From Cyclobacteriaceae bacterium (GTDB lineage Bacteria > Bacteroidota > Bacteroidia > Cytophagales > Cyclobacteriaceae), in NCBI GenBank assembly GCA_019638395.1, contig JAHBTX010000001.1, forward strand, positions 992,001 to 1,056,000: DNA of 64,000 nt, in the 5' to 3' direction. Position 1 is the stretch's first letter. Every line of letters starts with the position of its first letter. Position numbers and translations under genes: made by a program. Below the pieces are notes generated by a model, which saw only the letters and a program-made list of their open reading frames with translations, had not been told where the DNA came from and did no database searches. Positions 23,654-43,628 of this stretch are shown piece after piece.

Positions 23654-24337
23654 TTAAAGTCTTTCAAAGGTGTAACCTTTTTCGTTCAAAAATTCGAGGT
23701 AGCGCGGCAGGGCAAACATCATGTTCCGCTCAGCTTTGTAACTATCATGAAATACTACAATTGAACCTGACCTGGTTGCCCGAATGGTGCCTCGAATGCA
23801 TACATCCGGAGTTATGCTGTTACGATAATCTTGCGTAAGCACATCCCACATAATGATTTTATATTTTTCTTTCAACGCACTAATCTGGCTATGGGTTATG
23901 CGGCCGTACGGTGGGCGAAAGAGTTGGTAATTAGTTGCAGGTAATCGGTGTTCGGTAATTGGTAATCGGTTTTCAGTGGTATGCGGTTGGTTGGAGTGCT
24001 GAGATTTAAGTATTGCTTCGCATTTATTAATGTTTTCGATATAGGTTTGCAAAGGAGTTTTCCAACCTTTAAGATGATTGAACGTGTGGTTGCCAATGGC
24101 ATGACCAGTCGTTAAAATTTTTGCAAATACTTCGGGGTGTTTCTGCACGTTATCGCCAATACAAAAAAAAGTAGCCACTGCCTTATACTGCTTCAATGTT
24201 TCCAACACAAAGTCGGTTGCACCGGGAACGGGACCATCATCGAATGTGAGGTAAACTTTTTTCTCGGTTGCCGGCATGCGCCACACCAACTTCGGGTAAA
24301 GCCAGGGAAGAAAAAAAGGTGTTTGAAACAGATTCAA
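23654..24337 (-). CDS. Polysaccharide deacetylase (NodB domain) with in-frame repeat insert
   Basis: A 227-residue carbohydrate esterase 4 protein that removes N-acetyl groups from a glycan. The catalytic-base/metal Asp pair is in YLTFDDGPVPGA (D33, D34) and the metal His in AIGNHTFNHLKG (H84, H88). The second half has FRPPYGR, IMWDVLTQDY and IVVFHDSY. Between KSQ (113) and FRPPYG (140) lies a foreign-looking stretch, TENRLPI followed by TEHRLPA, encoded by 7-nt period repeats (23922-23991). The insertion is between the NodB motif-2 helix and motif 3 and keeps the frame. The start is TTG 24335-24337; no ATG is available upstream because the repeat tract begins there. Confidence 0.9.
   Translation of the reverse strand: MNLFQTPFFLPWLYPKLVWRMPATEKKVYLTFDDGPVPGATDFVLETLKQYKAVATFFCIGDNVQKHPEVFAKILTTGHAIGNHTFNHLKGWKTPLQTYIENINKCEAILKSQHSNQPHTTENRLPITEHRLPATNYQLFRPPYGRITHSQISALKEKYKIIMWDVLTQDYRNSITPDVCIRGTIRATRSGSIVVFHDSYKAERNMMFALPRYLEFLNEKGYTFERL
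23922..23991. repeat. Heptanucleotide-period repeat inside a coding sequence
   Basis: On the plus strand about eight to ten consecutive 7-nt units end in GGT or AGT in constant phase: AATCGGT twice, GTTCGGT, AATTGGT, AATTAGT and relatives. On the coding (minus) strand it appears as ACCGATT-type units, so three units equal seven codons. It resembles the intergenic tract at 27737-27823, which contains the same ATTACCG and AATCGGT words. Confidence 0.8.
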
Positions 24338-24407
24338 AGATTTAAATTTAAAATTACTCCGGATTCAAAATTTTTAAATCTCGAATTCGAAATTTCAAAT
24401 TATTCTA
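24338..24407. repeat. AT-rich heptanucleotide-period tract filling a gene gap
   Basis: Units in constant 7-nt phase include CTCGAAT, TCGAAAT and TTCAAAT at 24380-24400. The left part (AGATTTA, AATTTAA) is roughly inverse-complementary to the right (TTTAAAT, CTCGAAT), so a hairpin is possible. It occupies the whole space between the SpoIIE stop (24400-24402) and the deacetylase TTG. Confidence 0.65.
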
Positions 24408-25614
24408 CCCGGCACGAAAGAATCGTGATATCATCGCGGTAACCATTGCGGCCTTTAAACCCATCGAGGTTTACAATAATATCCTGATGCATGGTGCGAA
24501 TATCTTTATTACGATTATGCTGCAGGTAATCCACCAATGCCTGCACGCCATACTCGGCACCTGCTTCGTTTATCGTTTCGGTAAGGCCATCGGTATAAGC
24601 AAAAAGTGTAAACGCACTCAAATCGGTAATGAACCCTTCGTTTAAAAATGGCAATGGATTCATAGCCCCCAACACAGTGCTACCTTCTTCTAACAACCGC
24701 ACACCACTTTTATCCATCAGTATAGGTGGGTTATGGCCGGCATTTACATACACCATTGTTTTGAGGCTAAGGTCGTAAATAGCACCAAAGAAAGTTATGA
24801 ACTTTTCGCCTTTGGTGTTTTCCATTACCTGGTAGTTGAGTGCCTCTACAATTTCTTTCAGGTTTGGGGTTTGGCGCAACAATGTTCGTAATGATGCCTG
24901 AAAGTTGGACATCATTAATGCGGCAGGAATTCCTTTTCCGCTAACATCGGCCACACAAATCAAAAACTGATTTTTATTTATAGGCACGTAATCGTAGTAG
25001 TCGCCACCAATTATATCGTGTGGTAAATAGCTGGCTTCAATCTTTAGTCGATCGGTATAAGGCAGCCTTTCGGGAAATAGAAACTGCTGCACATCGCTGG
25101 CAATTTCCAACTCCTTGCGAAATGCTTCTTGTTCTAATTGTTTACGTGCGAGTTTTTTATTTTCAATTGCAACTATAATAATGTTGCTGAGTGCCTGAAT
25201 AAATTTTATGCTCTCATCCCGGTCGTGCTTGTTAGGATGGAGGCCCCCAACAAACACAAGCGCCAGTGTATCGGATTTGTGTGCGACCGGAATAACCAGG
25301 TCGAACTCGTGAAAAACACATTCTTCATCAAATTCATCCATGCGGTGGATGTTTTTGATAAGCTTAAAACGATCGTCCAGCCGGTGCTTTTGAAAATTTG
25401 ACTGGGTGCCAAAACTAACTTTACAATTCCAGATTTCATCTAACACGAAGAGTGCTAACTTCTTGATGTTGAGATTGGAGCGTAAGGTGAAGTTAAAAAT
25501 TTTATAGAGCGACTCCTCCGGAACATTGTTATTGATAGATTGGGTTATCTCCAACAACGCGTTGAGTTCCAGCTCTTTTCTTTCGAGAAGTGTTTTTAGC
25601 TCCAGTTCGTTCAT
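24400..25614 (-). CDS. SpoIIE/RsbU-type PP2C serine phosphatase
   Basis: A 404-residue protein. Residues about 1-35 form a helical or coiled segment (ELELKTLLERKELELNALLE). Residues about 30-155 look like a GAF-type sensor, followed by a helical linker (KKLARKQLEQEAFRKELEIA). Residues about 185-404 are a PP2C_SpoIIE domain with metal-binding GGDYYDY, VADVSGKGIPAALMM, VNAGHNPP and FAYTDGLTE. Such enzymes dephosphorylate anti-anti-sigma or STAS partners in partner-switching. No kinase or STAS gene is adjacent. The start ATG is 28 nt below a 17-bp palindrome. Confidence 0.92.
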   Translation of the reverse strand: MNELELKTLLERKELELNALLEITQSINNNVPEESLYKIFNFTLRSNLNIKKLALFVLDEIWNCKVSFGTQSNFQKHRLDDRFKLIKNIHRMDEFDEECVFHEFDLVIPVAHKSDTLALVFVGGLHPNKHDRDESIKFIQALSNIIIVAIENKKLARKQLEQEAFRKELEIASDVQQFLFPERLPYTDRLKIEASYLPHDIIGGDYYDYVPINKNQFLICVADVSGKGIPAALMMSNFQASLRTLLRQTPNLKEIVEALNYQVMENTKGEKFITFFGAIYDLSLKTMVYVNAGHNPPILMDKSGVRLLEEGSTVLGAMNPLPFLNEGFITDLSAFTLFAYTDGLTETINEAGAEYGVQALVDYLQHNRNKDIRTMHQDIIVNLDGFKGRNGYRDDITILSCRVE

Positions 25615-25641
25615 ACACTATAACATGTAAAAATAGCTAAA

Positions 25642-25658
25642 AGCCAATTCAATTGGCT
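25642..25658. promoter_or_regulatory. Palindrome upstream of the SpoIIE phosphatase gene
   Basis: AGCCAATT-C-AATTGGCT, a perfect 8-bp inverted repeat around one base. It lies 28 nt before the phosphatase ATG (minus strand), a suitable place for an operator or leader hairpin. The region 25615-25772 otherwise shows nothing I can name. Confidence 0.4.
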
Positions 25659-25772
25659 ATACGTTCCGGATAAGCAACTAAGATTAACAAAATATTAAAT
25701 GTTGGGTGGTGATGAGGCCAAACCAATACATAAGTTTTTGCATCAAAATGATCTTGTGAGGTGAGATTAGAA

Positions 25773-25861
25773 TGGTCTGTGAGGACACAGACCAGACCAG
25801 AATTATAGAGGGGCACAGACCAGAATAAAGAAGGTTAGAATGGTCTGTGAGGACACAGACC
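25773..25861. repeat. Two full copies and one half copy of an AGGA-loop hairpin repeat
   Basis: GGTCTGTGAGGACACAGACC occurs at 25774-25793 and at 25842-25861, each embedded in a TTAGAAT...AGAATAA context, so the repeat unit is longer than the hairpin. A right half alone (GCACAGACCAGAATAA) lies near 25813-25828. An 8-bp stem closes an AGGA loop. Degenerate remains (GACCAGGCCAGAGCACAGAC) continue to 25910. This is the 3' space of the GT2 gene (25615-25920), which holds no gene. Confidence 0.8.
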
Positions 25862-25920
25862 AGAATAAGAAGAATAAGAATAAAGAAGACCAGGCCAGAG
25901 CACAGACTATTTGTAACCCA

Positions 25921-27033
25921 TTAATGCGAATTGTGATCTGGCAAAACCGTACGGCCTTTCCACTTATACCCAACCAGTTGCGATGCCAACGCTACTATCA
26001 TAACATAAGGTGGATAAAATATTTGCAAAACAACAAAGGCCAACAAACTAAATGGTTGTTGAATTAACGTTGAAGTATAAGCCAATAGCACGCCTTCCAG
26101 TACGATTTTCGCCAATACACCAGCCAGTAAAAACGGACTTTGAGTAAAAAGAGCAATTGCCACCATTGGCAACCAAGCAATCTGAAATATAAGAACAAGC
26201 ACAGCCAGCAACTTCCCTATCGGTGAGTTGGCTCCCCATTTACTTGCCCACCGGATACGTTGCTCAAAAAATTCGTTTACGGATTTTGCTGGCCTTGTTT
26301 TGCAACTATTATTTCCAAACCTGATAGCCCGAATGGATTGCGGAAAGCGTTTTGAAATCTTGCGCATCAGAAATTCATCATCGCCTGTGGGAATATGTTC
26401 ATTGCCTGCATATCCCGCTACTGCTTCAAAAGCCGATTTTTTAAACGCCAGACTTGCACCATTGCACATAATAGGTTTGTTCCAACCCAACATACCCAAA
26501 CCGGTGGCCATTACACTGGCAAACTCAACCGCCTGCAGCTTACCAAAAAAAACAGGATTGTGTTTTAAACACACACTTCCGGCAACCAATTGTGTTGTTG
26601 GCTTAAAGGAGCGCACCATATCCGTAAGCCATTCGCGCGGAAGTTCGCAGTCGGCATCGGTGGTAACAATAATTTCTGCAATTGCTTGCCCAATGCCCGC
26701 AGTCAATGCTTGCTTTTTGCCTTTACCAGTTGCCTGCATGATGGTTATTATTAGCTGCGAAAATTTATGCTTCAAAATCTGGGCAACCTGCACCGTGTTG
26801 TCTTCCGAATGATCATCTACTAAAATCAATTCCCACTTTCCTTTATAATTCTGATGCGCCAAAGAAGCAATTAAAGTTTCCAGGTTTAGTGCCTCGTTAC
26901 GCATAGCAACTACCACCGCTACAACTGGGGTTGCGCCTCCTGTCTGTTGATCTTTCCTCCATCGCGCCAAGCCGCTGAAAAGAATCAGCAAAAAAATAAA
27001 ATAGATTACAAAAATGCTGATCCAGATAACCAT
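25921..27033 (-). CDS. Membrane-anchored family 2 glycosyltransferase
   Basis: A 370-residue GT2 enzyme. An N-terminal helix (MVIWISIFVIYFIFLLILFSGLA) precedes the GT-A domain with VVVAMRNEALNLETLIASL, LVDDHSEDNT, TTDADCELP (the DxD metal motif) and the acceptor-side GDDEFLMRK with QRIRWASKWG (Q-x-x-R-W). Three C-terminal helices follow. QRIRW is typical of processive or polyprenyl-linked enzymes. It probably adds a sugar to a lipid or growing glycan at the inner membrane. It starts 115 nt from ruvC on the opposite strand. Confidence 0.9.
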   Translation of the reverse strand: MVIWISIFVIYFIFLLILFSGLARWRKDQQTGGATPVVAVVVAMRNEALNLETLIASLAHQNYKGKWELILVDDHSEDNTVQVAQILKHKFSQLIITIMQATGKGKKQALTAGIGQAIAEIIVTTDADCELPREWLTDMVRSFKPTTQLVAGSVCLKHNPVFFGKLQAVEFASVMATGLGMLGWNKPIMCNGASLAFKKSAFEAVAGYAGNEHIPTGDDEFLMRKISKRFPQSIRAIRFGNNSCKTRPAKSVNEFFEQRIRWASKWGANSPIGKLLAVLVLIFQIAWLPMVAIALFTQSPFLLAGVLAKIVLEGVLLAYTSTLIQQPFSLLAFVVLQIFYPPYVMIVALASQLVGYKWKGRTVLPDHNSH

Positions 27034-27148
27034 TGTTTATCAGTAAGTTTGAGCGCATTTAACTATAGACCTTCCAGGTTGTTATGATAAACTTAAACAT
27101 CTGGAAGATCGGTCAAAACAAGAATTGAGATGCCTCAAAGTTTTAGAT

Positions 27149-27745
27149 GTGAGCAAAGTTGATAAAAAAGTTATTACCGAAAAGATTATTTTAGGCTTAG
27201 ACCCTGGCACCAACGTAATGGGTTACGGTGTTATTTTGATCAGAACCGGATCTGTTACGCTGTTACAGTTTGGTGTTATTCAAATGGGTAAAACGGGGGC
27301 GCATGCGGGTAAGCTTAAAAAGATTTTTGATAGGGTGTTGGCATTGGTTGATGAATTTAAACCCGATGAAGTTGCATTAGAGGCACCCTTCTTTGGTAAG
27401 AATGTGCAGTCGATGCTGAAGTTGGGCCGTGCACAAGGTGTAGCTATGTCGGCCGCGTTGTATCGCGAAGTACCTATTACCGAGTATGCGCCCAAAAAAG
27501 TAAAGCAATCTGTTACCGGCAATGGCAATGCATCCAAAGAACAAGTAGCTAAAATGCTGATGCAGATTTTTAATATTAAGGAAATGCCAAAACTTTTCGA
27601 TGCCTCGGATGCATTGGCCGTTGCAGTGTGCCATCATTACCAACATGGCAGTGTAAAACTTAAAGCAAAAGGCTGGGGCGATTTTCTAAAGACAAATCCT
27701 GGAAGGATTTCGGGTGGACGGAAAACCGTGGTCATTGGTCAGTAA
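27149..27745 (+). CDS. ruvC: Holliday junction resolvase RuvC
   Basis: RuvC cuts Holliday junctions. The first catalytic Asp is in IILGLDPGTNVMGYGV, Glu in VALEAPFFGKNVQSM, and the last Asp pair in FDASDALAVAVCHHY, with the basic helix PKKVKQSVTGNGNASKEQV between. I place the start at GTG 27149 (about 198 residues); TTG 27125 would add eight residues lacking family similarity. The last codons, ATT GGT CAG TAA, are the beginning of a 7-nt period repeat, so the repeat supplies the stop codon. Confidence 0.93.
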   Translation: MSKVDKKVITEKIILGLDPGTNVMGYGVILIRTGSVTLLQFGVIQMGKTGAHAGKLKKIFDRVLALVDEFKPDEVALEAPFFGKNVQSMLKLGRAQGVAMSAALYREVPITEYAPKKVKQSVTGNGNASKEQVAKMLMQIFNIKEMPKLFDASDALAVAVCHHYQHGSVKLKAKGWGDFLKTNPGRISGGRKTVVIGQ

Positions 27746-27823
27746 TCGGTTATGGGTGGTCAGTGGACTGTAAACCAAAAACTGATCACTGAATACCGAT
27801 TACCCGTTTACTGATTACCGATT
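27737..27823. repeat. Heptanucleotide-period inverted repeat spanning two gene ends
   Basis: Units in constant phase: GGTCAGT, AATCGGT, TATGGGT, GGTCAGT, GGACTGT, then after AAACCAA the inverse forms AAACTGA, TCACTGA, ATACCGA, TTACCCG, TTTACTG, ATTACCG. The left and right arms are imperfectly complementary, making a long hairpin between convergent ruvC and wecB. Both stop codons (ruvC 27743-27745, wecB 27808-27810) lie inside the repeat. It may act as a two-way terminator. Confidence 0.8.
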
Positions 27824-28896
27824 CTAACAAGTTCGTGCACAATTCTATCAGCAGTGCGGCCATCCCACAACTGTGGAATCTTTCCAGCTTTCCATTCACC
27901 TTTCTTTACTTTATCCAGGGCATTGGTTAACGCACTAAAATCATCACCAATCATTTCGTTGGTTCCTTCTGTAACCGTTTCGGGGCGCTCGGTATTATTG
28001 CGCAACGTTAGGCAAGGTATGCCCAGCACGGTGGTTTCTTCTTGCACCCCGCCTGAATCAGTTATTACCGCTTTTGATTCTTTGATCAGGTAGATAAACT
28101 CGAGGTAGCTAAGTGGATCGCACGCACGGATGTTTTTGGGTTTCTGCGCAAGCGTTGAAAAATTTTTCATCGTACGTGGATGTACTGGAAATACGATGGG
28201 TAGCCCGGTGTCATCTAACACCTGCATCCATTTTGCAAACTTTTCCGGATCGTCCACATTACTGGGTCTATGCAACGTAAGCACAAAATAGTTTTTGGAT
28301 TGTAGTGCAAACTCATCCCAAAAGCCAGGTTTCAGTGTGCGTGGTAGTTGCGTAAGCAGCGTGTCGATCATTGTGTTGCCCACAAAAAAAATCTGCTCGT
28401 TCTTCACTCCCGATCTTTTCAAATTATCATTCGCCACTTGCGATGTAGTAAAAAAGTAATCGGCTACTGAATCTGTTACCAGGCGATTGATTTCTTCGGG
28501 CATAGTCATATCGAACGAACGAATGCCACCTTCTACATGGGCTACTTTTGTATGGAGCTTTTTAGCCACTATCGTACAAGCCATAGTGGAAGTTACATCG
28601 CCCACTACAATCACCAGATCGGTTGGGTTGGCAAGTAAATCTTTTTCAAACTCAATCATAATGCGGGCCGTTTGTTCGGCTTGTGTGCCGGAACCAGCCC
28701 CCAGGTTTACATGCGCTGCTGGTATTTGCAGTTGCTCAAAGAAGATTTTACTCAGCCGGTCGTCATAATGCTGGCCGGTATGCACCAATCGATAGTGAAT
28801 ATCATACCCGTCTGTTTGTGTACGCTCCATGGCCCGGATGATGGGCGCTATCTTCATGAAGTTAGGACGGGCTCCGGCAACGAGAGTGATTTTCAT
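27808..28896 (-). CDS. wecB: UDP-N-acetylglucosamine 2-epimerase (non-hydrolysing)
   Basis: A 362-residue GT-B-like epimerase making UDP-ManNAc for surface glycans. Diagnostic stretches: LVAGARPNFMKIAPIIRAM, HTGQHYDDRLS, VVGDVTSTMACTIVAKKL, HVEGGIRSFDMTMPEEINR, LTLHRPSNVDDPE, ITDSGGVQEETTVLGIPCLTLR and NTERPETV. Its final residues RIGNQ and stop are encoded by the 7-nt period repeat shared with ruvC. The first 193 bp are duplicated at 30406-30598. A TACCTTTG box (minus, 28992-28999) about 100 nt upstream may be its promoter. Confidence 0.96.
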   Translation of the reverse strand: MKITLVAGARPNFMKIAPIIRAMERTQTDGYDIHYRLVHTGQHYDDRLSKIFFEQLQIPAAHVNLGAGSGTQAEQTARIMIEFEKDLLANPTDLVIVVGDVTSTMACTIVAKKLHTKVAHVEGGIRSFDMTMPEEINRLVTDSVADYFFTTSQVANDNLKRSGVKNEQIFFVGNTMIDTLLTQLPRTLKPGFWDEFALQSKNYFVLTLHRPSNVDDPEKFAKWMQVLDDTGLPIVFPVHPRTMKNFSTLAQKPKNIRACDPLSYLEFIYLIKESKAVITDSGGVQEETTVLGIPCLTLRNNTERPETVTEGTNEMIGDDFSALTNALDKVKKGEWKAGKIPQLWDGRTADRIVHELVRIGNQ

Positions 28897-28929
28897 TACA
28901 ATAAATGGTTTATCCGTTTACATTATCAT

Positions 28930-28999
28930 GGTCTGTGAGTACTTGATCATTATCATTTATTAATAAGTGAATACTCTCGCCAAAATATTTTCAAAGGTA
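28930..28999 (-). promoter_or_regulatory. wecB leader: half hairpin repeat and possible -7 box
   Basis: TACCTTTG on the minus strand at 28992-28999 matches the -7 consensus, but no clear -33 box is seen 17-20 nt above it. GGTCTGTGAG at 28930-28939 is a left half of the AGGA-loop hairpin family. The gap 28897-29002 holds no gene. Confidence 0.4.
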
Positions 29000-29002
29000 G
29001 GC

Positions 29003-30175
29003 TTACCTAATCGTTGATAAATACTTTTTTACAAAAATTTCTAAACTTACTCTGCGTACACCTTCTTTAGAAAGATAATCAGTTTCAAATGGGGTGATAA
29101 TAAAGTTGTTTTTCGATTTTAAATCTTCCACTGAGTGATAAAACCCTTTACTTATGTTGATTGATTTGCTATACTTTATCTCAATGGCCGCCTTCACTTC
29201 TTCCCCTTTTGCTAAAACCAGGTCACACTCGGCACCTGCGTGAGTCCTATAATAATATCCATCCAGCCGGGTATCCTTAGCGTATAAGATTTGACTAATC
29301 ACATACCCCTCCCAAGATGCACCAATACTTGGATGGTTGAGCAAATCTTGATCACTGTGAATGTTGAGCAAAAAATGGAGAATACCCGAATCATTGACAT
29401 AAACTTTAGGTGCTTTAACCAATCTCTTGCGCACGTTAATAAAAAAAGGTGGAAGGCGGTTGATAATAAATGCTCCTTCCAAAAACTCAATATAGCGTTT
29501 CAGCGTTGTGCCCGTAATATCAAGGGAGTTACCCAGGTTTTCGGCATTGAGAATGTTACCATGCATGCGCGCCAGCATTTGCCATAGTTTGCGCATAGTA
29601 ACAGTCGAAAATTTTACATCGAACAGAAAAGGCAAATCTCTTTCAATGTATGTAGTAATGAACGAATCCATCCAATCGCTTCGATTAGCATTTGATTTTA
29701 GGGTAAGTGGTACTGGAAACCCTCCGCGCAACCAATGCTTTTTTATGCTAATTGATACCGGTAATTCATGCACTCCGATTGGATTAAGCTGGCAATACAT
29801 TACCCTGCCGGCCAGGCTTTCAGACGCACCTTTAAGCAATTCTGGCGAAGCAGAACCCGTGATGATAAACCTTGCCGGTATTCTTTTTTCATCAATCAAT
29901 GATCGCAACAGTGGAAACAACGAGGGCATGCGTTGCACTTCATCAATGATTACACAGTGGTTTATATACGTTGCAAAAAACTCTTCCGGCTCGCGATTAA
30001 TTGCGGCAAGCGTACTTGGCCGTTCCAGATCAAGGTAGTGAACTGGTTTTTTTAATTTCCCCGTCAATTCTTTCGCCAACGTGGTTTTGCCCACCTGCCT
30101 TGCTCCTAAAATAGCAACTGAAGGAAATGATTTTAACGCCCGTACGAGGGTGGTTATGGTAGCTCTTTCAATCAT
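29003..30175 (-). CDS. AAA+ ATPase with DUF4143 C-terminal domain (copy 1)
   Basis: A 390-residue protein. Walker A is ILGARQVGKTTLAKEL (about residues 20-35), Walker B HCVIIDEVQRMP, sensor FIITGSASPELLKG. The C-terminal DUF4143 domain includes a nuclease-like core, AGAECDLVLAKGEEVKAAIEIKYSKS (D...ExK type, in part). Family members are widespread in bacteria and archaea as accessory genes; their function is unknown. It separates intact wecB from a truncated wecB copy, so it looks like a later arrival. It has a strong promoter whose predicted start lies at or next to the ATG (leaderless), overlapped by a 37-bp dyad. Confidence 0.92.
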   Translation of the reverse strand: MIERATITTLVRALKSFPSVAILGARQVGKTTLAKELTGKLKKPVHYLDLERPSTLAAINREPEEFFATYINHCVIIDEVQRMPSLFPLLRSLIDEKRIPARFIITGSASPELLKGASESLAGRVMYCQLNPIGVHELPVSISIKKHWLRGGFPVPLTLKSNANRSDWMDSFITTYIERDLPFLFDVKFSTVTMRKLWQMLARMHGNILNAENLGNSLDITGTTLKRYIEFLEGAFIINRLPPFFINVRKRLVKAPKVYVNDSGILHFLLNIHSDQDLLNHPSIGASWEGYVISQILYAKDTRLDGYYYRTHAGAECDLVLAKGEEVKAAIEIKYSKSINISKGFYHSVEDLKSKNNFIITPFETDYLSKEGVRRVSLEIFVKKYLSTIR

Positions 30176-30179
30176 TTTT

Positions 30180-30210
30180 CAAAGGTAATACCATCCTTGA
30201 AAATTTCAAA
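30180..30210 (-). promoter_or_regulatory. Leaderless-type promoter of the first DUF4143 ATPase
   Basis: Minus strand TTTG (30207-30210), 19-nt spacer, TACCTTTG (30180-30187), then four nucleotides and the ATG at 30175. Transcription would begin at or within a few bases of the start codon. Confidence 0.7.
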
Positions 30211-30231
30211 TTGCATTTGACATTTTCAAGG
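30195..30231. promoter_or_regulatory. 37-bp dyad overlapping the -33 region
   Basis: CCTTGAAAAT at 30195 mirrors ATTTTCAAGG ending at 30231, and the inner TCAAAT mirrors ATTTGA, with one mismatched pair and a 3-nt centre. It covers the -33 element of the ATPase promoter, as a repressor operator would. A diverged half copy (CTTGAAATTTCAAATTGCAT) recurs at 30349-30373. Confidence 0.6.
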
Positions 30232-30373
30232 ACAGATTAAATCGAATAAATGACTGCTTCAAAGTTTTAATATGGCCATGTTTCGTGATATTGATCTGAT
30301 CTATGCGGACACAGATGGTTGTATCGACATTATCTCGGTAGTTACATGCTTGAAATTTCAAATTGCATTTAAC

Positions 30374-30400
30374 TATTGGCCGTGAGGACACAGGCCAATA
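30374..30400. repeat. AGGA-loop hairpin repeat, C/G-swapped stem
   Basis: TATTGGCC-GTG-AGGA-CAC-A-GGCCAATA: 11 paired bases with one bulged A around the AGGA loop. Compared with GGTCTGTG/CACAGACC the stem has exchanged T-A for C-G pairs, keeping pairing. It abuts the truncated wecB copy. Confidence 0.7.
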
Positions 30401-30405
30401 ATAAG

Positions 30406-30598
30406 GGTTTACATGCGCTGCTGGTATTTGCAGTTGCTCAAAGAAGATTTTACTCAACTTATCATCATAATGCTGGCCGGTATGCACCAATCGATAGTGA
30501 ATATCATACCCGTCTGTTTGTGTACGCTCCATGGCCCGGATGATGGGCGCTATCTTCATGAAGTTAGGACGGGCTCCGGCAACGAGAGTGATTTTCAT
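30406..30598 (-). pseudogene. Truncated duplicate of wecB (first 62 codons)
   Basis: This 193-bp segment copies 28704-28896 exactly from the ATG, except for five substitutions confined to 8 bp (30457-30464 versus 28755-28762). Those changes are three synonymous codons and one Arg to Lys codon. After the duplication the frame runs into hairpin repeats and random sequence, so no functional epimerase can be made. It is a remnant of duplication or of recombination with a related allele. Confidence 0.88.
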
Positions 30599-30611: not shown

Positions 30612-30841
30612 TATTGGCCAGTGGAGAACACAGACTAATAGGTAAGTGAAATAAAAAACGAAGGTGCAAAAATTCAGTTTCCTTTTGAGAAAGCGAAATG
30701 ATTCGAAAGAAAAGATAAAACCTATTGGTTAGATTGTTGGATATTTGGTTTTTGGAGAACAGTACCATGATGATGGGATTGTATTGGCCTGTGAGGACAC
30801 AGGACACAGGCCAAGTGAATGAGACACAAGCCAACTTTTTG
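30612..30841. repeat. Gene-free stretch with decayed and full AGGA-loop hairpins
   Basis: A full but extended copy lies at 30784-30814: TTGGCCTGTG pairs with CACAGGCCAA, and AGGACAC is duplicated in the loop. A decayed copy (TTGGCCAGTGGAGAACACAGAC) is at about 30614-30635, and a lone right half (GAGACACAAGCCAA) follows at 30821-30834. No open frame here looks real. The region lies between the wecB remnant and the permease stop. Confidence 0.65.
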
Positions 30842-36569: not shown

Positions 36570-38065
36570 TGGGCCTCGTCATCCGCCAAAGTATTTACAC
36601 CACCTTAATATCCTATGCCGGGGCTTCAATTGGTTATCTCAATCTGCTTTATCTATTCCCAAAATTTCTGGAACCCGAACAAGTCGGGTTACTAAGAACT
36701 ATTCAGGACGCAGCTATCTTGTTAGCCCCGTTTGCCACGTTTGGATTGGCGCAAAGTATTTTCCGGTTTCATCCGCAACTTGTTAAAGACAAAACAACCG
36801 AAGCGGGCTTTATAAGCCTCATTACCTTTTTAGCGCTGGTTGGGTTTGCTATTTTTTTTGTTGCTTTCAAACTATTCGAAACATCAATCCTCGCCTACTT
36901 TGAAGACAATGCACGGGAAATCATCCAATACGCATCAGTAGTATTATGGCTTACACTGATTTTACTAATTACATCATTGCTGGAGGCTTACTCAAGATCG
37001 TTGTTGAAAATGATTTTTCCGAACCTGTTGCGCGAGGTGGTGGTTCGGCTGTTGCTGGCGCTATTGGTGATAAGCTATTTTCAAGGTTACATTTCCTACA
37101 ACCAATTTATTGTCAACACCGTAATCGCTTATCTTTTTTGCCTGTTGTTGCTAGTGGCTTATCTCAGTTTTCTTAAAAAGATTTCATTCACGTTAAATCT
37201 AAGCTCGCTGCAACCGGCTAAAATAAAGTCGCTGGTCGTTTATAGTTCACTCAGTTTTGCCGGCACTGCGGGTATGATTGTGATTGGCAAAGTAGATAGC
37301 ATGATGGTATCGGGCATGTTGGGGCTGGCAGCCAATGCCGTTTATACTACCGCATTTTACATGGCTACGATCATTGAAATTCCACGAAGGGCCATGAGCC
37401 AGGTGGCCATGCCCTTGATAGCGCGCGCGTTTGAAAAAAATGACTTGACCGACATTCAAACAATCTACAGGAAAACAGCCATCAACCAATTTATTATTGG
37501 CGCATTGCTCCTGGTTGGAGTCTATATCAATCTGGATAATATATTCGCACTGATGCCGCGACAGGAAGTTTATGAAGTTGGAAAGTGGGTAGTGATTATT
37601 GTTGGTATTGGCAAGCTAACCGACATGTTGTTTGGTCCGAGTAGCGAGATTATTGTACTCTCAAAATATTACGCGTTTAATATTTTACTGCTTACATCGC
37701 TGGCAGCCGTTGTAATTGTTAGTAACAACATCCTCATCCCGATTTACGGTATAAATGGAGCCGCTATGGGTTCGGCTTTGGCGCTTATCACGTTTAATAT
37801 CCTGAAGTATTTTTTCATCTGGTATAAATTGAAGATGCAGCCATTTAATCTGGATTCAGTAAAAGTTCTGGTTATAGCTTTAGTGATGATCGGACTAAAT
37901 CTACTTATCCCAAAATTTCAAACAGTAGTTGCTGATATTGCTATTCGTTCTGTAGCAATCACTATTACTTATTCGGTTCTGATATTCTACTCGCGCGCCA
38001 CCCCAGATGGGAATTCGTTTCTACTGAAGCAACTTAATCGCGTTGGGCTACTTAAAAAGAATTAA
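36569..38065 (+). CDS. Wzx-type oligosaccharide flippase
   Basis: A 498-residue polytopic protein of the polysaccharide transport (MATE-like) superfamily with about 14 helices. The N-terminus is MGLVIRQSIYTTLISYAGASI, followed by YLFPKFLEPEQVGLLRT. A central GKVDSMMVSGMLGLAANAVYTTAFYMATI (in part) is typical. It would move lipid-linked repeat units across the inner membrane for the glycan made by the neighbouring transferases. Translationally coupled to the DUF4143 ATPase upstream; 3' end overlaps the convergent GT4 gene by 4 nt. Confidence 0.9.
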   Translation: MGLVIRQSIYTTLISYAGASIGYLNLLYLFPKFLEPEQVGLLRTIQDAAILLAPFATFGLAQSIFRFHPQLVKDKTTEAGFISLITFLALVGFAIFFVAFKLFETSILAYFEDNAREIIQYASVVLWLTLILLITSLLEAYSRSLLKMIFPNLLREVVVRLLLALLVISYFQGYISYNQFIVNTVIAYLFCLLLLVAYLSFLKKISFTLNLSSLQPAKIKSLVVYSSLSFAGTAGMIVIGKVDSMMVSGMLGLAANAVYTTAFYMATIIEIPRRAMSQVAMPLIARAFEKNDLTDIQTIYRKTAINQFIIGALLLVGVYINLDNIFALMPRQEVYEVGKWVVIIVGIGKLTDMLFGPSSEIIVLSKYYAFNILLLTSLAAVVIVSNNILIPIYGINGAAMGSALALITFNILKYFFIWYKLKMQPFNLDSVKVLVIALVMIGLNLLIPKFQTVVADIAIRSVAITITYSVLIFYSRATPDGNSFLLKQLNRVGLLKKN

Positions 38066-39363
38066 CCCACTGTCTCTAACAATACAATCAACTTATCTGT
38101 CAGCACCCTGCGGGAATAATTTGTTAGCGTTTTTGAATCTGGCTTAGTACCTGACTTCCAGTTTGTGAAACTTTTCATCAAGGCTGTCTCAAGACCTAAC
38201 TGGTCGTTAGGCTCATGTACGTTTCCGGCACCAGCATTTTTTATAATCAAAGCTGAATCGCCATCACTCGCCCCCACTCCAATTATTTCGTTACCCGATG
38301 CCAGGTACTCAAAAAGTTTTCCCGGAATATTACCTGCTGCATGAGCAGCGTGTGCGAGTACTAACAAAAGCACATCGGTACTTCCATATAATTTCAATAA
38401 TTCGTTGTGCGGCAGTTGATTAATGAAAGTAACGCAAGCAGCTAACACGTTATCGTCTTCAACAAAACTTTTGAACACGGCATTAACCGAACCAACAAAC
38501 TCTATATTCAATGCGCTATTAAAATCAGCATGCTTCAAACAAAGTTCTTTAATGGCAAGCATAGCAGGACGAGGATCGCGCAATTCATCAACTCCTCCGA
38601 TATGTCGAATAGTGAATTTAGAAGTGCGATGATGTTGGATTAATTTAAAGTCATCTTCATCAAAACCGTTGGTAATCAAGTGTACATTTTTTCCGCCCAG
38701 TTGTTGAAATTGCTTTAGGTAATAAGGAGTAACCGTTAACACGAGATCAGCCTCTTGTAATACTGATCGTTCCATTTGTTTATGACGATTTCTTGCCCAT
38801 GTTGAAAGCTGAAGCGTATCCAATAAATCCCACTCACTCCAGGGATCACGAAAATCAGCAACCCATTTTATTGCTGCATTTTTTCTTTTTAATCCCCTAC
38901 CAATCAGATGCATGCTGTGCGGTGGACCGGTAGTAATTATTCTGTCGATATTATTCCGTTGCACAAAGTCGATCAGGTATTCAACTGATGGTTTTATCCA
39001 AAATCTTCTTGCATCGGGGATGAAAAAATTTCCGCGTACCCACATGCCAAATTTCTGAAGGAGTGTTTTCTTACCGGTAGCAACAAAGTCAACTTGTTGC
39101 ATTTTCTTACCAGAAAAAATTGAAGTGAGCTGATTGAAGATTTTGTATGGCTCCCAGATCGGAAAATGAATTACTTCAACCTGAGACGGTACATCTTTTA
39201 ACAGCGATGTATCCCAAATAGCTACATGCGGATTTTCAGGAGTGAATACATAAGGTTCCCATCCTTTTTGTGTCAGATACTTTACAAATTTTAGCCAACG
39301 TTGCACGCCACTTCCCCCGGAAGGGGGCCAGTAATAGGTTATGATGAGCACTCGCTTATTCAT
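38062..39363 (-). CDS. Family 4 glycosyltransferase
   Basis: A 433-residue GT-B enzyme beginning KRVLIITYYWPPSGGSGVQRWLKF. It shows IITTGPPHSMHLIG and WVADFRDPWSEW in the acceptor half. The donor half has VHLITNGFDEDDF, IEFVGSVNAVFKS, LHAHAAGNIPGKLFEYLASGNEIIGVG-like residues (AAGNIPGKLFEYLASG), the nucleotide-sugar site. It closes the surface-glycan cluster on the opposite strand. Its leader contains four heptanucleotide units (39373-39400). Confidence 0.9.
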   Translation of the reverse strand: MNKRVLIITYYWPPSGGSGVQRWLKFVKYLTQKGWEPYVFTPENPHVAIWDTSLLKDVPSQVEVIHFPIWEPYKIFNQLTSIFSGKKMQQVDFVATGKKTLLQKFGMWVRGNFFIPDARRFWIKPSVEYLIDFVQRNNIDRIITTGPPHSMHLIGRGLKRKNAAIKWVADFRDPWSEWDLLDTLQLSTWARNRHKQMERSVLQEADLVLTVTPYYLKQFQQLGGKNVHLITNGFDEDDFKLIQHHRTSKFTIRHIGGVDELRDPRPAMLAIKELCLKHADFNSALNIEFVGSVNAVFKSFVEDDNVLAACVTFINQLPHNELLKLYGSTDVLLLVLAHAAHAAGNIPGKLFEYLASGNEIIGVGASDGDSALIIKNAGAGNVHEPNDQLGLETALMKSFTNWKSGTKPDSKTLTNYSRRVLTDKLIVLLETVG

Positions 39364-39372
39364 GAAGTAAAA

Positions 39373-39400
39373 GTAGGCAGTTGGCAGTAGGCAATCGGCA
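39373..39400. repeat. Four heptanucleotide units in a glycosyltransferase leader
   Basis: GTAGGCA, GTTGGCA, GTAGGCA, ATCGGCA in tandem without gaps, 10 nt from the ATG of the GT4 gene. Unlike the other tracts it has no inverse arm. Confidence 0.75.
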
Positions 39401-39409
39401 AAGCTTACA

Positions 39410-40315
39410 TTAATTTTTTATTCCCAGTTGAGAATTAATTTCAACAATCTTTTCGGGTTTAAACCATTTGGTGTCTGGATCTTTTTTAAACCACGTTAGT
39501 TGCCGCTTGGCATAATGCCTTGAGTTTCGTTTTAGCAATCTAACGGCTTCCGCTTTATCATAAAGCCCATCCATAAATCCAAAAATCTCGCGATAGCCTA
39601 CCGTTTGTAACGCATTCAGGTGGCGGAGCGGATAAAATTTTTCAGCTTCGGCAAACAACCCTTGCTCAATCATGCCATCCATGCGCATGTCAATGCGGTT
39701 ATAAAGTTCTTCACGTTCCAACTCAATACCAATCTTTACAATCTGAAACGGATGTTCAGTTTTTTTCTGTTGTCGTAATTCATGCATGGGTTTTTGCCAG
39801 GCACGATACAGTTCCAGCGCCCGGATTAACCGATGTGGATTTTGAATATCTACTATTTCAAAATAAGCCGGATCAACTTGTTTTACCTGTGCTTGCAACC
39901 AGGTAAGTCCGTTTGCTTCGTATTCTTCAATTATCTGTGCCCTTAATCCTTCCGGGATAGGTGGCATCTCATCAAAACCCTCCAGCACCGCTTTTATGTA
40001 CAAGCCTGAGCCTCCACAAAGAATAAGATTATCGTATTGCTGAAACAAAAAATGGATCAACGTAAGTGCCTCACGACCATATGCCCCGGCATCGTAGTCA
40101 TCTTTTATAGAATGTGTATTTATGAAATGGTGCTTAACCTGCATCAGTTCGGCTGGGCTGGGTTTTGCGGTACCAATTTCCAACTCCTTGTAAATCTGGC
40201 GCGAGTCGGCCGAAATAATCTCAGTTTGAAGCTGTTGCGCCAACCGGATGGCCAGTGTGGTTTTGCCTACAGCAGTAGGACCCACAATTACAATTAGTCT
40301 TTTTGTTGATTTCAT
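39410..40315 (-). CDS. miaA: tRNA dimethylallyltransferase
   Basis: A 301-residue enzyme that adds a dimethylallyl group to A37 of UNN-reading tRNAs. P-loop VGPTAVGKTTLAIRLA, catalytic Asp-containing ISADSRQIYKELEIGTAKP, DDYDAGAYGREA, CGGSGLYIKAVLEG and QKPMHELRQ, QTVGYREIFGF, with KRNSRHYAKRQLTWFKKD near the end. Standard length. The start codon directly follows the heptanucleotide tract at 40315-40384, whose units form the 5' leader. Confidence 0.96.
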   Translation of the reverse strand: MKSTKRLIVIVGPTAVGKTTLAIRLAQQLQTEIISADSRQIYKELEIGTAKPSPAELMQVKHHFINTHSIKDDYDAGAYGREALTLIHFLFQQYDNLILCGGSGLYIKAVLEGFDEMPPIPEGLRAQIIEEYEANGLTWLQAQVKQVDPAYFEIVDIQNPHRLIRALELYRAWQKPMHELRQQKKTEHPFQIVKIGIELEREELYNRIDMRMDGMIEQGLFAEAEKFYPLRHLNALQTVGYREIFGFMDGLYDKAEAVRLLKRNSRHYAKRQLTWFKKDPDTKWFKPEKIVEINSQLGIKN

Positions 40316-40384
40316 TACCGAATTACGAATTACGAATTACTATTGAATACACCAACCAAAATCGTAAATCGCAAATTCGAAATT
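40315..40384. repeat. Heptanucleotide-period inverted repeat between divergent genes
   Basis: Ten gapless 7-nt units: TTACCGA, ATTACGA twice, ATTACTA, TTGAATA, CACCAAC, then CAAAATC, GTAAATC, GCAAATT, CGAAATT. The left units and the right units are rough inverse complements around the CACCAAC centre. It begins at the miaA start codon and fills most of the divergent gap; the next gene starts 38 nt on. Confidence 0.8.
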
Positions 40385-40421
40385 TAAGCCTTATCTTTCG
40401 GACTAAAATTCGCCACTACGA

Positions 40422-40697
40422 ATGATTAAGTACACCAATCAATTTTTAACCAAGCTGGAAGACCTGGTTGCCGAATCGGATTATATTCTTCGGTATGAAA
40501 AGGGAAACTTCAAATCGGGCTATTGCCTGCTAAAAGAACAGAAGATCATGATTGTGAACAAGTTCTTTACGGTTGAAGGAAAAATAAATGCATTGTTAGA
40601 CATTCTGAAAAACCTGGAGCTTGACCCCACACGGTTTTCTGAAAAGAGTAAAAAACTTTATGACGAACTACATGATGTTGAGGTAAAGAGTGAATAA
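40422..40697 (+). CDS. Conserved 91-residue protein of unknown function
   Basis: A small acidic-basic protein starting MIKYTNQFLTKLEDLVAESDYILRYEKGNFKSGYC, followed by two strands (EQKIMIVNKFFTV) and a C-terminal helix (INALLDILKNLELDP). No membrane segment. I recognise it only as a short conserved type found in Bacteroidota. It is the first gene of a plus-strand run with Uma2, MBL hydrolase and rqcH, gaps of 3-22 nt. Confidence 0.65.
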   Translation: MIKYTNQFLTKLEDLVAESDYILRYEKGNFKSGYCLLKEQKIMIVNKFFTVEGKINALLDILKNLELDPTRFSEKSKKLYDELHDVEVKSE

Positions 40698-40719
40698 GGC
40701 CTTTCGCAACTTTTAGACT

Positions 40720-41250
40720 ATGCAAGAAGCGGTTTTACATCCACCCCGAACACTTTTGGAAGTATTTAAAATGCTACCAGAGGGAACTTGTGCAGAAATA
40801 GTTGATAATAGTCTATATATGTCGCCATCACCAACTTTAAATCATCAAAGTGCGATCGGAGGACTGTTTAGCAAAATCTATTCGCACGTTCTCAAAAAGA
40901 AATTGGGGAAAGCCTTTGTTGCACCTTTGGATGTTTATCTTTCCAAGACGAATGTATTTCAACCTGATGTGGTTTTTGTCTCAACACAAAATGAAAGTAT
41001 TTTAAAAAGAGACGGCATTTATGGTGCTCCCGATCTGGTGATTGAAATATTGTCAGCCGGAACTAAAAAATTAGACCTCACCAAGAAAAAAGATGCCTAC
41101 GAAAAAGCGGGCGTAAAAGAGTATTGGGTGGTTGATCCTGAAACATCTGAAGCTATCGGCTTTCAATTAGTAAAAGGAAAATATCAGGAGTTTAAGCGCC
41201 AACAAAATAAAGTCAGTTCGCTTTTACTTAAGCGCACATTCAAGTTTTAG
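40720..41250 (+). CDS. Uma2-family (DUF820) putative endonuclease
   Basis: A 176-residue PD-(D/E)xK fold protein: NHQSAIGGLFSKIYSHV, YLSKTNVFQPDVVFVS (catalytic Asp in QPDVVFV), and APDLVIEILSAGTKKLDLTKKKDAYEKAGVKEYWVVDP, where Glu in VIEILS and a Lys near DLTKKKDAY complete the active site. Uma2 proteins are abundant but functionally undefined. It lies between two conserved genes and has no partner toxin or antitoxin visible. Confidence 0.85.
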   Translation: MQEAVLHPPRTLLEVFKMLPEGTCAEIVDNSLYMSPSPTLNHQSAIGGLFSKIYSHVLKKKLGKAFVAPLDVYLSKTNVFQPDVVFVSTQNESILKRDGIYGAPDLVIEILSAGTKKLDLTKKKDAYEKAGVKEYWVVDPETSEAIGFQLVKGKYQEFKRQQNKVSSLLLKRTFKF

Positions 41251-41253
41251 CTT

Positions 41254-42015
41254 TTGAAAATCACTTTTCTCGGTACCGGAACTTCACAAGGTGTGCCTGT
41301 AATTGGGTGCACGTGCGAGGTTTGTCAGTCGCTTGATTATCGCGATAAGCGATTGCGCTCTTCTATTCATTTGCAACTAAATGATCTGAGTTTAGTTATT
41401 GATACCGGGCCCGATTTTCGACAGCAGATGTTGCGCGAGCGCATTAACAAACTTGATGCTGTTTTATTTACCCACAGCCATAAAGATCATATTGCCGGGT
41501 TGGACGATGTACGGGCTTACAACTATCTGCAAAAAGCCGACATGCCGGTTTACGGAAATGCAGATGTTTTTGCACAACTCAAAAAAGAGTTTTACTACGT
41601 ATTTGAAAAAAATAAATACCCGGGCATTCCTCAATTAAAACTGCACGAAATTAATCACGCACCATTTTTTATCGGCTCCATAAAAATTTTACCACTACCG
41701 GTATTGCATTATCAACTACCGGTGTTGGGTTTTCGCATCGATAATTTCAGTTACATTACCGATGCCAATCAAATTCCGGAATCAACTTTAGCCTTATTAA
41801 AGGGCACACACACGCTGGTGTTAAATGCCTTGCAACGCGAAAAACATGTTTCGCATTTTAATCTGGAGGAAGCATTGGCAATGGCGGCTCGCATTGGCGC
41901 CCAACAAACCTATTTTATACACATCAGTCATAAACTTGGTTGCCATAAAATTGTAGAACGTGAGTTACCAAATTCAGTAGCTTTGGCTTACGATGGCCTG
42001 AGTATTGAGGTTTAA
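41254..42015 (+). CDS. MBL-fold metallo-hydrolase (PhnP-like)
   Basis: A 253-residue metallo-beta-lactamase-fold phosphodiesterase-like enzyme beginning ITFLGTGTSQGVPVIGCTCEVC. The two cysteines of the GCTCEVC stretch are typical of PhnP-like proteins and could bind a structural zinc. The metal motif is FTHSHKDHIAGLDDVR, and LHYQLPVLGFRIDNFSYITDA and FIHISHKLG supply further ligands. It probably cleaves a cyclic or diester phosphate. Start is TTG 41254, 3 nt after the Uma2 stop; the next gene follows 3 nt later. Confidence 0.88.
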   Translation: MKITFLGTGTSQGVPVIGCTCEVCQSLDYRDKRLRSSIHLQLNDLSLVIDTGPDFRQQMLRERINKLDAVLFTHSHKDHIAGLDDVRAYNYLQKADMPVYGNADVFAQLKKEFYYVFEKNKYPGIPQLKLHEINHAPFFIGSIKILPLPVLHYQLPVLGFRIDNFSYITDANQIPESTLALLKGTHTLVLNALQREKHVSHFNLEEALAMAARIGAQQTYFIHISHKLGCHKIVERELPNSVALAYDGLSIEV

Positions 42016-42018
42016 CCC

Positions 42019-43554
42019 GTGCACAATAACTATTACTTTCTAAAACAACTGAGCAAGCACTTGCACCAAAAGCTTTCAGGCTTTTGGGTAGTGGCGTGCT
42101 TTAGTCAGAATAAAGATGAGTTGGTGCTGGAATTCAACAACGCACAACAATCGTACTTTATTAAAGCAAGTTTACAATCTGACTTTTGCTGTCTTTCGTT
42201 TCCCGATCAATTTAACCGCGCCCGAAAAAACAGCATCGATCTCTTCAACGAGATTATTCTAAAAGCCGTAAAACAGGTTTATCAATTTGAAAACGAACGG
42301 TGCATTGCTATTCAACTTGAAGATAATTTCTCGTTACTTTTTAAAATGCATGGCAATAGGGCTAATGTTATTCTCTTTCAAAATGATAGTGCAATAGCTT
42401 TATTCCGAAGCCATTTGAAAAGTGATTTATCGCTTACGCTTTCTACACTTAAGCGCACTCTTGATTTCAGTGAGCAAACTTTTCGGGAGCATTTATCTAA
42501 TCTGCCAGCCTATTATTATACGTTTGGTAAATTGGTTTGGCAATATTGGGATATGAAAATAAAAGGTTTCCCCGATAAAGATTTGTGGCCAGCATTCCAG
42601 CAATTAATTCAGGAATTAGAATCACCTAAGTATTACCTGATTGAGCATTCAGATAAACTTCAGCTTTCGCTGGTGCCAACTCACACTATTTTAATAGAGT
42701 TTGAGAATCCGGAGGTGGCACTCAATTCATTCTTTATCCAGTATGTTCATCAGCAAGCTTTCAGTTCGCAGAAAGACAAACAACTGAAAACACTACGCGA
42801 CCAGATCAAAGCCGGCCAAAATTATATTCAAAAAAACAGACAGAAATTAACAGAACTGCAACAAGACACACACTACCAGCTTTGGGGCGATTTGCTGATG
42901 GCCAACCTCCATGCACTTACCAACGGAATTAAACACACCACGCTTAGCAGTTTTTACGACAATCAACCCGTGGAGATAAAATTAAAACCCGAACTATCGC
43001 CACAAAAAAATGCCGAGGTATTTTATCGCAAGGCTAAGAATCAGCAAATCGAAATCAATCAGCTAAAGAAAGCAATTGAACTTAAAAGCACAGAACTTCA
43101 ACGATTAACACACCAATTAACAGAAGTTGAAAACACAATTGATCTAAAACAATTAAAGCAAACCGAACCTCAAACCGCTTCCAAACAAAAAAAAGAAATA
43201 CTTCCTTACTACCAATTTGAGCACAAAGGTTTTCGTATTTGGGTGGGGCGCAATGCCGAAGCCAACGATGAACTTACGTTGAAACTGGCTTACAAAGAAG
43301 ACTTGTGGTTACATGCAAAAGATGTGGCAGGTTCGCATGTCATTATTAAGCATCAAGCGGGTAAAAATTTTCCTAAAGATGTAATTGAACGTGCAGCCCA
43401 ATTAGCTGCCTACAACTCCAAACGCAAAACCGATTCGCTATGCCCGGTTATCGTTACACCTAAAAAGTTTGTTCGCAAACGTAAAGGCGATCCTGCCGGA
43501 GCCGTTGTGGTGGAGCGAGAGCAGGTGATATTAGTAGAACCTAAACTTGATTAA
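42019..43554 (+). CDS. rqcH: NFACT-family ribosome quality control protein RqcH
   Basis: A 511-residue NFACT protein. The N-terminal FbpA-like domain has FKMHGNRANVILFQ, a coiled coil spans about residues 255-385 (KTLRDQIKAGQNYIQ and IELKSTELQRLTHQLTEVEN), and the C-terminal NFACT-R domain has GFRIWVGRNAEANDELTLK, DLWLHAKDVAGSHVIIK and VIVTPKKFVRKRKGDPAGAV. RqcH adds alanine tails to nascent chains on split 50S subunits. The start is GTG 42019. Convergent with pyk, with a repeat tract between. Confidence 0.88.
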   Translation: MHNNYYFLKQLSKHLHQKLSGFWVVACFSQNKDELVLEFNNAQQSYFIKASLQSDFCCLSFPDQFNRARKNSIDLFNEIILKAVKQVYQFENERCIAIQLEDNFSLLFKMHGNRANVILFQNDSAIALFRSHLKSDLSLTLSTLKRTLDFSEQTFREHLSNLPAYYYTFGKLVWQYWDMKIKGFPDKDLWPAFQQLIQELESPKYYLIEHSDKLQLSLVPTHTILIEFENPEVALNSFFIQYVHQQAFSSQKDKQLKTLRDQIKAGQNYIQKNRQKLTELQQDTHYQLWGDLLMANLHALTNGIKHTTLSSFYDNQPVEIKLKPELSPQKNAEVFYRKAKNQQIEINQLKKAIELKSTELQRLTHQLTEVENTIDLKQLKQTEPQTASKQKKEILPYYQFEHKGFRIWVGRNAEANDELTLKLAYKEDLWLHAKDVAGSHVIIKHQAGKNFPKDVIERAAQLAAYNSKRKTDSLCPVIVTPKKFVRKRKGDPAGAVVVEREQVILVEPKLD

Positions 43555-43628
43555 TTTAAATTTTGGATTTAAGATTTCACATTAAGGACAACCTAATTTT
43601 GAATCTTAAATCCGAAATCTTAAATCTT
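43555..43628. repeat. Heptanucleotide-period inverted repeat between convergent rqcH and pyk
   Basis: Starting directly after the rqcH stop: TTTAAAT, TTTGGAT, TTAAGAT, TTCACAT, then TTTTGAA, TCTTAAA, TCCGAAA, TCTTAAA up to the pyk stop. GGATTTAAGATT (43565-43576) is a perfect inverse complement of AATCTTAAATCC (43602-43613). Possible two-way terminator. Confidence 0.78.

Follow-up and report, generated by a model that had tools for sequence, protein, structure and literature searches.

We analysed a stretch of 64,000 nucleotides (nt) from a Cyclobacteriaceae bacterium, hereafter the window (G000:C1:992001-1056000, inside a 4.78 Mb genome), in which six tracts of repeated heptameric DNA lie in or beside protein-coding genes (Table 1). 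The closest named relatives of the window's pyruvate kinase are uncultured Cytophagales, Bacteroidetes and Cyclobacteriaceae metagenome-assembled genomes, at 92-96 percent identity. Searched with Rfam at gathering scores, the window yields only an RNase P RNA and a tRNA, and none of the tracts is recognised. Open reading frames (ORFs) in our scans are longest-ORF calls made without a gene finder. The names miaA, rqcH, truA, thiolase and leucine-rich are presumptive, being read from Pfam names or translations. In this bacterium and its relatives the tracts are mainly intergenic and resemble repeats known from cyanobacteria and some other bacteria, but they mostly follow one spelling tendency and hold to a rhythm, while the words themselves differ by site and by species.

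Table 1. Heptamer tracts and accompanying features of the window (window coordinates).
Feature	Position	Strand	Remarks
Direct 7-nt array in the deacetylase frame	23922..23991, strongest part 23940-23977	-	sense words ACCGATT, ACCAATT, ACCGAAC
Polysaccharide deacetylase ORF, TTG start, 227 amino acids	23654..24337	-	PF01522, E 4.6e-27; holds the coding tract
Weak AT-rich heptamer hairpin, end of SpoIIE-domain gene	24338..24407	-	RRTTNNN core 24377-24401
Heptamer hairpin between convergent RuvC (+) and Epimerase_2 (-)	27729..27823	.	lag-7 score 24; fold z -4.1
Direct array GTAGGCA/GTTGGCA between two minus-strand genes	39372..39401	.	lag-7 identity 0.81; score 15
AATTACG heptamer hairpin between IPPT (miaA-like) gene (-) and 91-amino-acid ORF (+)	40315..40384	.	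score 21
GATTTAA/GATTTCG heptamer hairpin, fills the gap between convergent NFACT (rqcH-like) and pyruvate kinase genes	43555..43628	.	fold z -6.4
RNase P RNA class A	7678-8084		Rfam
tRNA gene	20658-20744		Rfam

The window was scanned at lags 4-15 by sliding 28 comparisons, with a cluster called at 19 or more matches and with local shuffles as control. Lag 7 gives six clusters, two of them within one tract, which together cover five of the six tracts; lag 4 gives one, lag 14 two (one of these in the tract at 23922) and the remaining lags 5-15 none, while the shuffles give 0.05-0.25 clusters per lag. The initial annotation had called the 7-nt period strict in all six tracts. The period is indeed found in five, but the repeats are degenerate: the units within a tract are not identical or nearly so, the lag-7 identity in coordinate order being 0.56, 0.48, 0.61, 0.81, 0.65 and 0.60. 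Tract 24338-24407 is weak, with an identity of 0.48 at lag 7 beside 0.47 at lag 6 and 0.40 at lag 8, and the lag scan, which calls no cluster in it, does not set it apart from AT-rich background. Its minus strand carries an exact match to three RRTTNNN units followed by RRTT at 24377-24401 (G000:C1:1016377-1016401).

Folding of the tracts was compared with 200 dinucleotide shuffles. The inverse-complementary halves reported for four tracts are borne out, with three strong hairpins (Table 1; z -3.4 for 40315-40390) and a weak one at 24338-24407 (z -2.2). No hairpin is supported for the other two tracts, 23922-23991 (z -0.4) and 39372-39401 (z 0.0), whose repeats are direct. The unit phase, which had been thought to hold across the tract centre, is not carried through the loop, since the distance between mirrored motifs takes every value modulo 7 among 16 hairpins. 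Contrary to the initial description, not every tract abuts a gene end or start: 23922-23991 is contained in the deacetylase-domain ORF. Tract 27729-27823 extends into both convergent ORFs and covers their last codons, so that the C-termini of the two proteins are encoded by repeat DNA.

Beyond the window, non-coding DNA was scanned for segments scoring at least 12 at lags 4-21. Three samples (the window's own genome, the relative G023 and mixed relatives) comprise 603 gaps, or 129,936 nt with flanks, and hold 25 lag-7 segments against a mean of 0.35 and a maximum of 3 in 20 dinucleotide-preserving shuffles; other lags from 4 to 16 give 0-2, lag 14 excepted. This comparison with other lags and with shuffles had been proposed as a check, and the excess at lag 7 is confirmed by it. 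By sample, 464 kb of the own genome give 10 segments at lag 7, against 0-2 at any of the remaining lags (4-21), and 400 kb of mixed relatives give 14 at lag 7, 11 at lag 14, 7 at lag 21 and 0-1 elsewhere. A further 26 loci give 15 at lag 7, 11 at lag 14 and 0-2 elsewhere. In 400 kb of G023 there is no clear lag-7 excess, as lag 7 gives 3 segments, lag 14 gives 4, lag 21 gives 3, lag 6 gives 2 and the others 0-1. An Escherichia coli control of 50 kb shows no lag-7 segment, its 4,495 non-coding bases being too few to weigh.

The same period appears when complementarity (score at least 11) is the only criterion for choosing stems (n=25, 24 and 32 in three samples): the match of an arm to itself peaks at lag 7, at 0.395, 0.395 and 0.478, whereas other lags lie at 0.20-0.34. 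Among stems whose arms are long enough, a match of at least 60 percent is found at lag 7 in 55/321, at lag 6 in 14 and at lag 8 in 24/225. The own genome also holds a perfect array of nine AATTAGG units (L213:2089-2152; G000:C1 about 349088-349151), which overlaps the end of an ORF and is a tract in a young state. To the eye, this ORF has a leucine-rich look. Elsewhere, an AATTGTC hairpin (L220:1344-1375, also in L234) lies between thiolase-like and truA-like ORFs, and in two genomes the thiolase-like frame reads into it, which gives a longer C-terminus.

Nine of the own genome's tracts have at least one relative with both flanking genes in the stretches compared. The tracts at 27729, 39372, L015:6766 and two in L019 have a related word in at least one relative, namely: in three relatives for 27729-27823, and as similar words in L023, L025 and L026 for 39372-39401. 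For the tracts at 40319 and 43555, relatives show both a related word and another word class. The 40315 tract is inherited with a similar loop in L023, L142, L024 and L026, is of another class in L028 and is unrecognisable in L025. The tract at L021:16872 corresponds to another word class in L160 and to a gap of only 10 nt in L144, and the tract at 30794 has no counterpart in the one relative compared. At the pyruvate kinase gap the hairpin words are GATTTAA in the window and L025, GGTTTCC/GGTTACC in L022, AGTTACC in L027, ATTCAAR in L028, AGTTATY in L030, CGTTATT in L038 and AGTCATT in L047; further sequences carry a canonical terminator, a short remnant or no such element, and the gene that follows is not always the same. 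Thus, a heptamer tract can stay at an orthologous gap while its word class changes.

The coding tract also varies in length. The own deacetylase, aligned throughout, is longer by 14 (L142), 19 (L162), 10 (L158) and 8 (L169) residues than those of four relatives in the genus, and the more distant protein of L082 is shorter by 25 residues at the tract. Relative to L142 the difference is 42 nt, or six heptamers, and at this position L142 carries a shorter array of 7-nt spacing, with a lag-7 score of 6 against 13 in the own genome (other lags at most 4 and at most 6, respectively). A period of 7 does not fall into whole codons, and selection on an RNA hairpin hardly explains it in a coding tract.

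According to the initial annotation the tracts have no common sequence and the choice of word is free. The former holds for whole words; the latter does not, because the 5′ hairpin arms in the genus lean to one pattern with a fixed polarity. Free-phase alignment of 44 7-periodic 5′ arms gives [AG][AG]T[TC]NNN (the RRTTNNN tendency), with a log-likelihood of 273 against 183-205 in ten controls whose column order was shuffled within each arm; for a stricter set of 29 hairpins, fitting always the 5′ arm gives 243.9 against 203.7 +/- 10.9 for a randomly chosen arm, a value reached by 0/200 random orientations. Since some hairpins in both sets are orthologous between related genomes, independence is overstated. 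The own genome's vocabulary consists mostly of RATT words. The window word GTAGGCA fits neither RRTT nor RRTY, and AGTCGAT fits RRTY only. Lag-7 tracts of the genus taken without a hairpin condition (n=50) also share a motif (450 vs 378 +/- 17 in shuffles), which on both strands is closer to A[TG]T[CTA]A than to RRTT.

Several results speak against RRTT as a general rule. For period 7 outside the genus (n=29) the polarity is not significant, being reached by 21/200 random orientations; for period 8 it is reached by 1/200 outside the genus (n=19) and by 9/200 within it (n=7, the arms there not being RRTT). In whole genomes, where palindromic AATT words score on both strands, runs of RRTTNNN exceed the reversed pattern in the own genome (96/25), G039 (152/6), G040 (88/17), G046 (333/68) and G043 (485/277), but not in G049 (222/345) or G045 (0/10), hardly in G041 (44/36) and G048 (7/6), and G044 has none. 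The corresponding 8-nt pattern is found 55/17 times in G040 and 35/15 times in G039 (six matches in each being plain GATT repeats), 126/35 times in G043 and 11/4 times in the own genome; against the rule, G046 has 6 matches and 103 to the reversed pattern. Finally, the RGTT form was counted by hand in 148 genomes of the phylum, at a level of at least 10 matches and at least three times the control. Thirteen of the 37 genomes of the own class (own genome included) show it at this level and 0 show the reverse, whereas among the remaining 111 genomes 9 show it and 8 the reverse. The own genome itself has 2 matches only to this form.

Some related lineages have tracts with an 8-nt period. Stretches picked partly around pattern matches, whose counts are therefore not genome rates, give 10 lag-8 and 6 lag-7 segments in Pontibacter (400 kb), 4 and 9 in Splendidivirga (200 kb) and 5 and 18 in Brumimicrobium (200 kb), with 0-3 at other lags from 4 to 13. 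Pontibacter words are of type AGTTAGAG and AGTTTGGG, and hairpins of such words with an 8-nt period occur at L067:18050-18132, at L069:18339-18421 and in the Pontibacter stretches L173-L192. When Pontibacter stems are pooled, no lag clearly stands out (0.315 at lag 8, 0.310 at lag 3, 0.293 at lag 7). Outside the genus, the 5′ arms of the 8-nt hairpins, taken together (n=19), contain AGTT and are 4 percent C; Splendidivirga departs from RRTTNNNN, with 6 matches vs 103 for the reversed pattern. Outside the phylum, 300 kb from two plasmids of Trichormus (Anabaena) variabilis give 7 segments at lag 7, 5 at lag 14 and 0-2 at other lags, and plasmid A carries a degenerate heptamer hairpin with AGTCAGG-type arms (L273:43054-43145). 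The structure is thus not peculiar to Bacteroidota.

The papers on heptanucleotide repeats that we compared deal each with one word, in one genome or at one locus. A close likeness is to the P6b element of the Nostoc trnL (tRNA-Leu UAA) intron (PMC4476775, PMC3488679), which is described there as having Class I (TDNGATT) and Class II (NNTGAGT) heptamers. Both systems have degenerate 7-nt units, pairing arms (in 4/6 window tracts, z -2.2 to -6.4), a size set by repeat number and repeated changes of word class under a stable structure, and Class I contains GATT and hence fits RRTTNNN. P6b, as described, belongs to one cyanobacterial group I intron locus, whereas the tracts here occupy many intergenic sites and one coding site. 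The GGGAATC repeats of Xanthomonas and the GGGGA(T/C)T repeats of Nostoc (Rehm 2015, PMC4692102) are reported as dispersed, mostly intergenic heptamers, often less than 50 bp from a stop codon, with few between divergent ORFs; inverted pairs number 70 and 75 in two Xanthomonas genomes and are few in Nostoc (PMC4692102). Like our tracts, they vary in length and sequence between relatives (PMC4692102). Unlike them, they are presented as a single G-rich word in each genome, with the potential to form G-quadruplexes (PMC4692102), and the Xanthomonas pairs called convergent in GGGAATC would place GATT on the 3′ arm, opposite to the polarity seen here (PMC4692102). The Nostoc word GGGGACT does not fit RRTT.

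Within the phylum, the initial annotation knew of no described equivalent with the inverted form, but published work comes closer than it was aware. Direct TAACTGA repeats have been reported from Beggiatoaceae, Cyanobacteria and five Bacteroidetes, with other heptamers beside them in two (MacGregor 2015, PMC4679880). These are likewise heptamer arrays in Bacteroidota spacers, and the reverse complement of the word rotates to AGTTATC, which fits RRTTNNN; as described, though, they consist of one word in direct arrays, lie mostly just before start codons in the main genome and include one inverted case (PMC4679880). No TAACTGA doublet occurs on either strand of the window. Word searches of one open-licence library did not find the degenerate, many-word inverted form in Bacteroidota. 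An excess of heptanucleotide simple sequence repeats in prokaryotes, with slippage over a 7-nt polymerase contact as the proposed cause, is attributed to Mrazek 2007 (as cited in PMC4679880 and PMC4692102). In those citations the repeats are longer than expected, and inverted degenerate and 8-nt tracts are not mentioned. REP/RAYT or REPIN elements differ from our tracts, which have no conserved palindromic core across copies but only the RRTT tendency. We place the tracts with the known heptanucleotide repeats as a variant, given the inverted pairs of Xanthomonas and the degenerate pairs of Nostoc. When rotated or complemented, TAACTGA, GGGAATC, GGGGATT, Helicobacter pylori GTGATTA and Nostoc Class I TDNGATT all contain RRTT, whereas GGGGACT does not and Class II (NNTGAGT) does in a quarter of its spellings; this match is retrospective and drawn from a limited set of papers, and a random 7-mer contains RRTT with a chance of 0.19.

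We consider the tracts to be, with somewhat better than even probability, degenerate heptanucleotide repeats that have grown by 7-nt duplication and decayed by point mutation, with arms copied by fold-back. Tracts would lengthen by duplication in 7-nt steps (8-nt steps in some related lineages) and decay through point mutation. Non-coding tracts would often gain an inverted second arm when the nascent strand folds back and copies itself, that is, by template switching at a quasipalindrome, a kind of mutation documented in E. coli (PMC7202029). The same copying would let the words drift without loss of the match between arms. Tracts would then persist where they are least harmful, somewhat oftener between convergent genes, and some may be taken over as bidirectional 3′-end hairpins. 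We infer this mechanism, and any 3′-end function, from the comparisons above; the period, the perfect AATTAGG array and the coding tract all speak for mutation in steps of 7 nt as the origin. Copying or slippage on such steps had been put forward initially, and it is the best-supported reading, with the qualification that the step is not always 7 and the words are not free.

Several observations weigh against this account. Slippage alone does not predict the RRTTNNN spelling (273 vs 183-205) or the arm polarity in the genus (0/200), and a footprint fixed at 7 nt leaves the 8-nt tracts of other Bacteroidota unexplained; these three form a remainder that an origin in 7-nt steps does not cover. 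The deacetylase differences are 42, 57, 30 and 24 nt, of which only the first is a multiple of 7. At the miaA-like gene the gap measures 98-129 nt, and the variation does not follow units of 7. Stepwise drift would hardly turn a whole tract to another word class, and the three longest stems of the own genome are not heptameric (0.222 at lag 7). Taken by itself, the own genome shows no significant preference for convergent gaps (4/37 vs 9/248, p 0.07). Loss of mismatch repair was considered as a cause and rejected, as MutS_I is present in 13/13 genomes searched, tract-rich and tract-poor alike.

Selection for long hairpins, the other initial proposal, would make the tracts bidirectional terminators or stabilisers of mRNA 3′ ends, with the period incidental to long stems. 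We regard this as unlikely, though the least so among the alternatives. Counted by gap and excluding the 26 loci chosen around pyruvate kinase, which is a convergent gap, tracts occur in 11/119 convergent, 23/574 tandem and 4/150 divergent gaps. Convergent gaps are thus richer than the rest (11/119 vs 27/724, odds ratio 2.6, p 0.014), and the hairpin after pyruvate kinase occurs in several species despite different words; an automatic criterion, which misses visible cases of both kinds, classes 12 of 31 sequences there as heptameric, 4 as canonical terminators and 1 as both. However, divergent and tandem gaps do not differ in how often they hold tracts (p 0.63), and in tandem gaps of all four sets 19/31 tracts are closer to the upstream stop. 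The location bias is modest, and it fits tolerance together with possible use as 3′-end hairpins. A terminator feature (GC-rich stem and T-run) is not called at the window's pyruvate kinase gap, and by eye no T-run follows the other window tracts. Moreover, such selection alone does not account for the two direct arrays among the six tracts, one of which is coding.

A further unlikely explanation, to which we give slightly less weight, is a family of minute mobile hairpins (MITE-, REP- or SDR-like) that a transposase multiplies, with vocabularies fixed by recent spread. Such elements would suit vocabularies that differ by lineage (Pontibacter with AGTTAGAG/AGTTTGGG, the own genome with RATT words for the most part), the word AATTGTC at seven own-genome sites (at most 2 mismatches; the reversed pattern at none), the fixed arm polarity and the appearance of another word class at the same gap. 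Against them, there is no conserved core beyond the RRTT tendency, and a reading by eye of a few gaps, which is not a systematic search, revealed no target duplication. Y1 transposases (PF01797) occur in 13/13 genomes, tract-poor ones included, and are thus uninformative as a driver. A shared core at fixed spacing would also suit an array for a multivalent binder of repeat RNA; we find this very improbable, as the tracts have no consistent position before start codons, 4/6 window tracts are paired and the spacing is 8 in some relatives. A chance pattern in AT-rich spacer DNA would fit tract 24338-24407 taken alone, but for the set it is refuted by the shuffles and by the other lags, and its probability is negligible.

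Returning to growth by short duplications and fold-back, a broader and quite speculative proposal, to which we give little credence, is that one sequence-preferring copying process acts in Bacteroidota, Cyanobacteria and some Gammaproteobacteria, in 7- or 8-nt steps, with RRTT-headed units and fold-back hairpins of fixed polarity. If so, the published heptamer repeats would be its outputs, and the rule rather than the word would be inherited. The RRTT tendency, the polarity in the genus, the 8-nt tracts and the change of words under a kept rhythm make the question 'why seven' testable, and an answer must cover both RRTT and eight. The tracts would supply new gene-end hairpins and protein insertions in a large phylum.

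Blastn searches with gap DNA, and with a made-up heptamer query against plasmids, gave no match with the low-complexity filter on. A hairpin of TCCTTGAAAATTTCAAAT/ATTTGACATTTTCAAGGA at a gene end (window 30194-30232), with a close counterpart at L142:7736-7776 in G023, is not clearly heptameric. Adjoining the 40315 tract, the block 40385-40421 (TATCTT...AAAATTCGCCACTACGA) is strongly conserved in six sequences and is perhaps the promoter or leader of the 91-amino-acid ORF.

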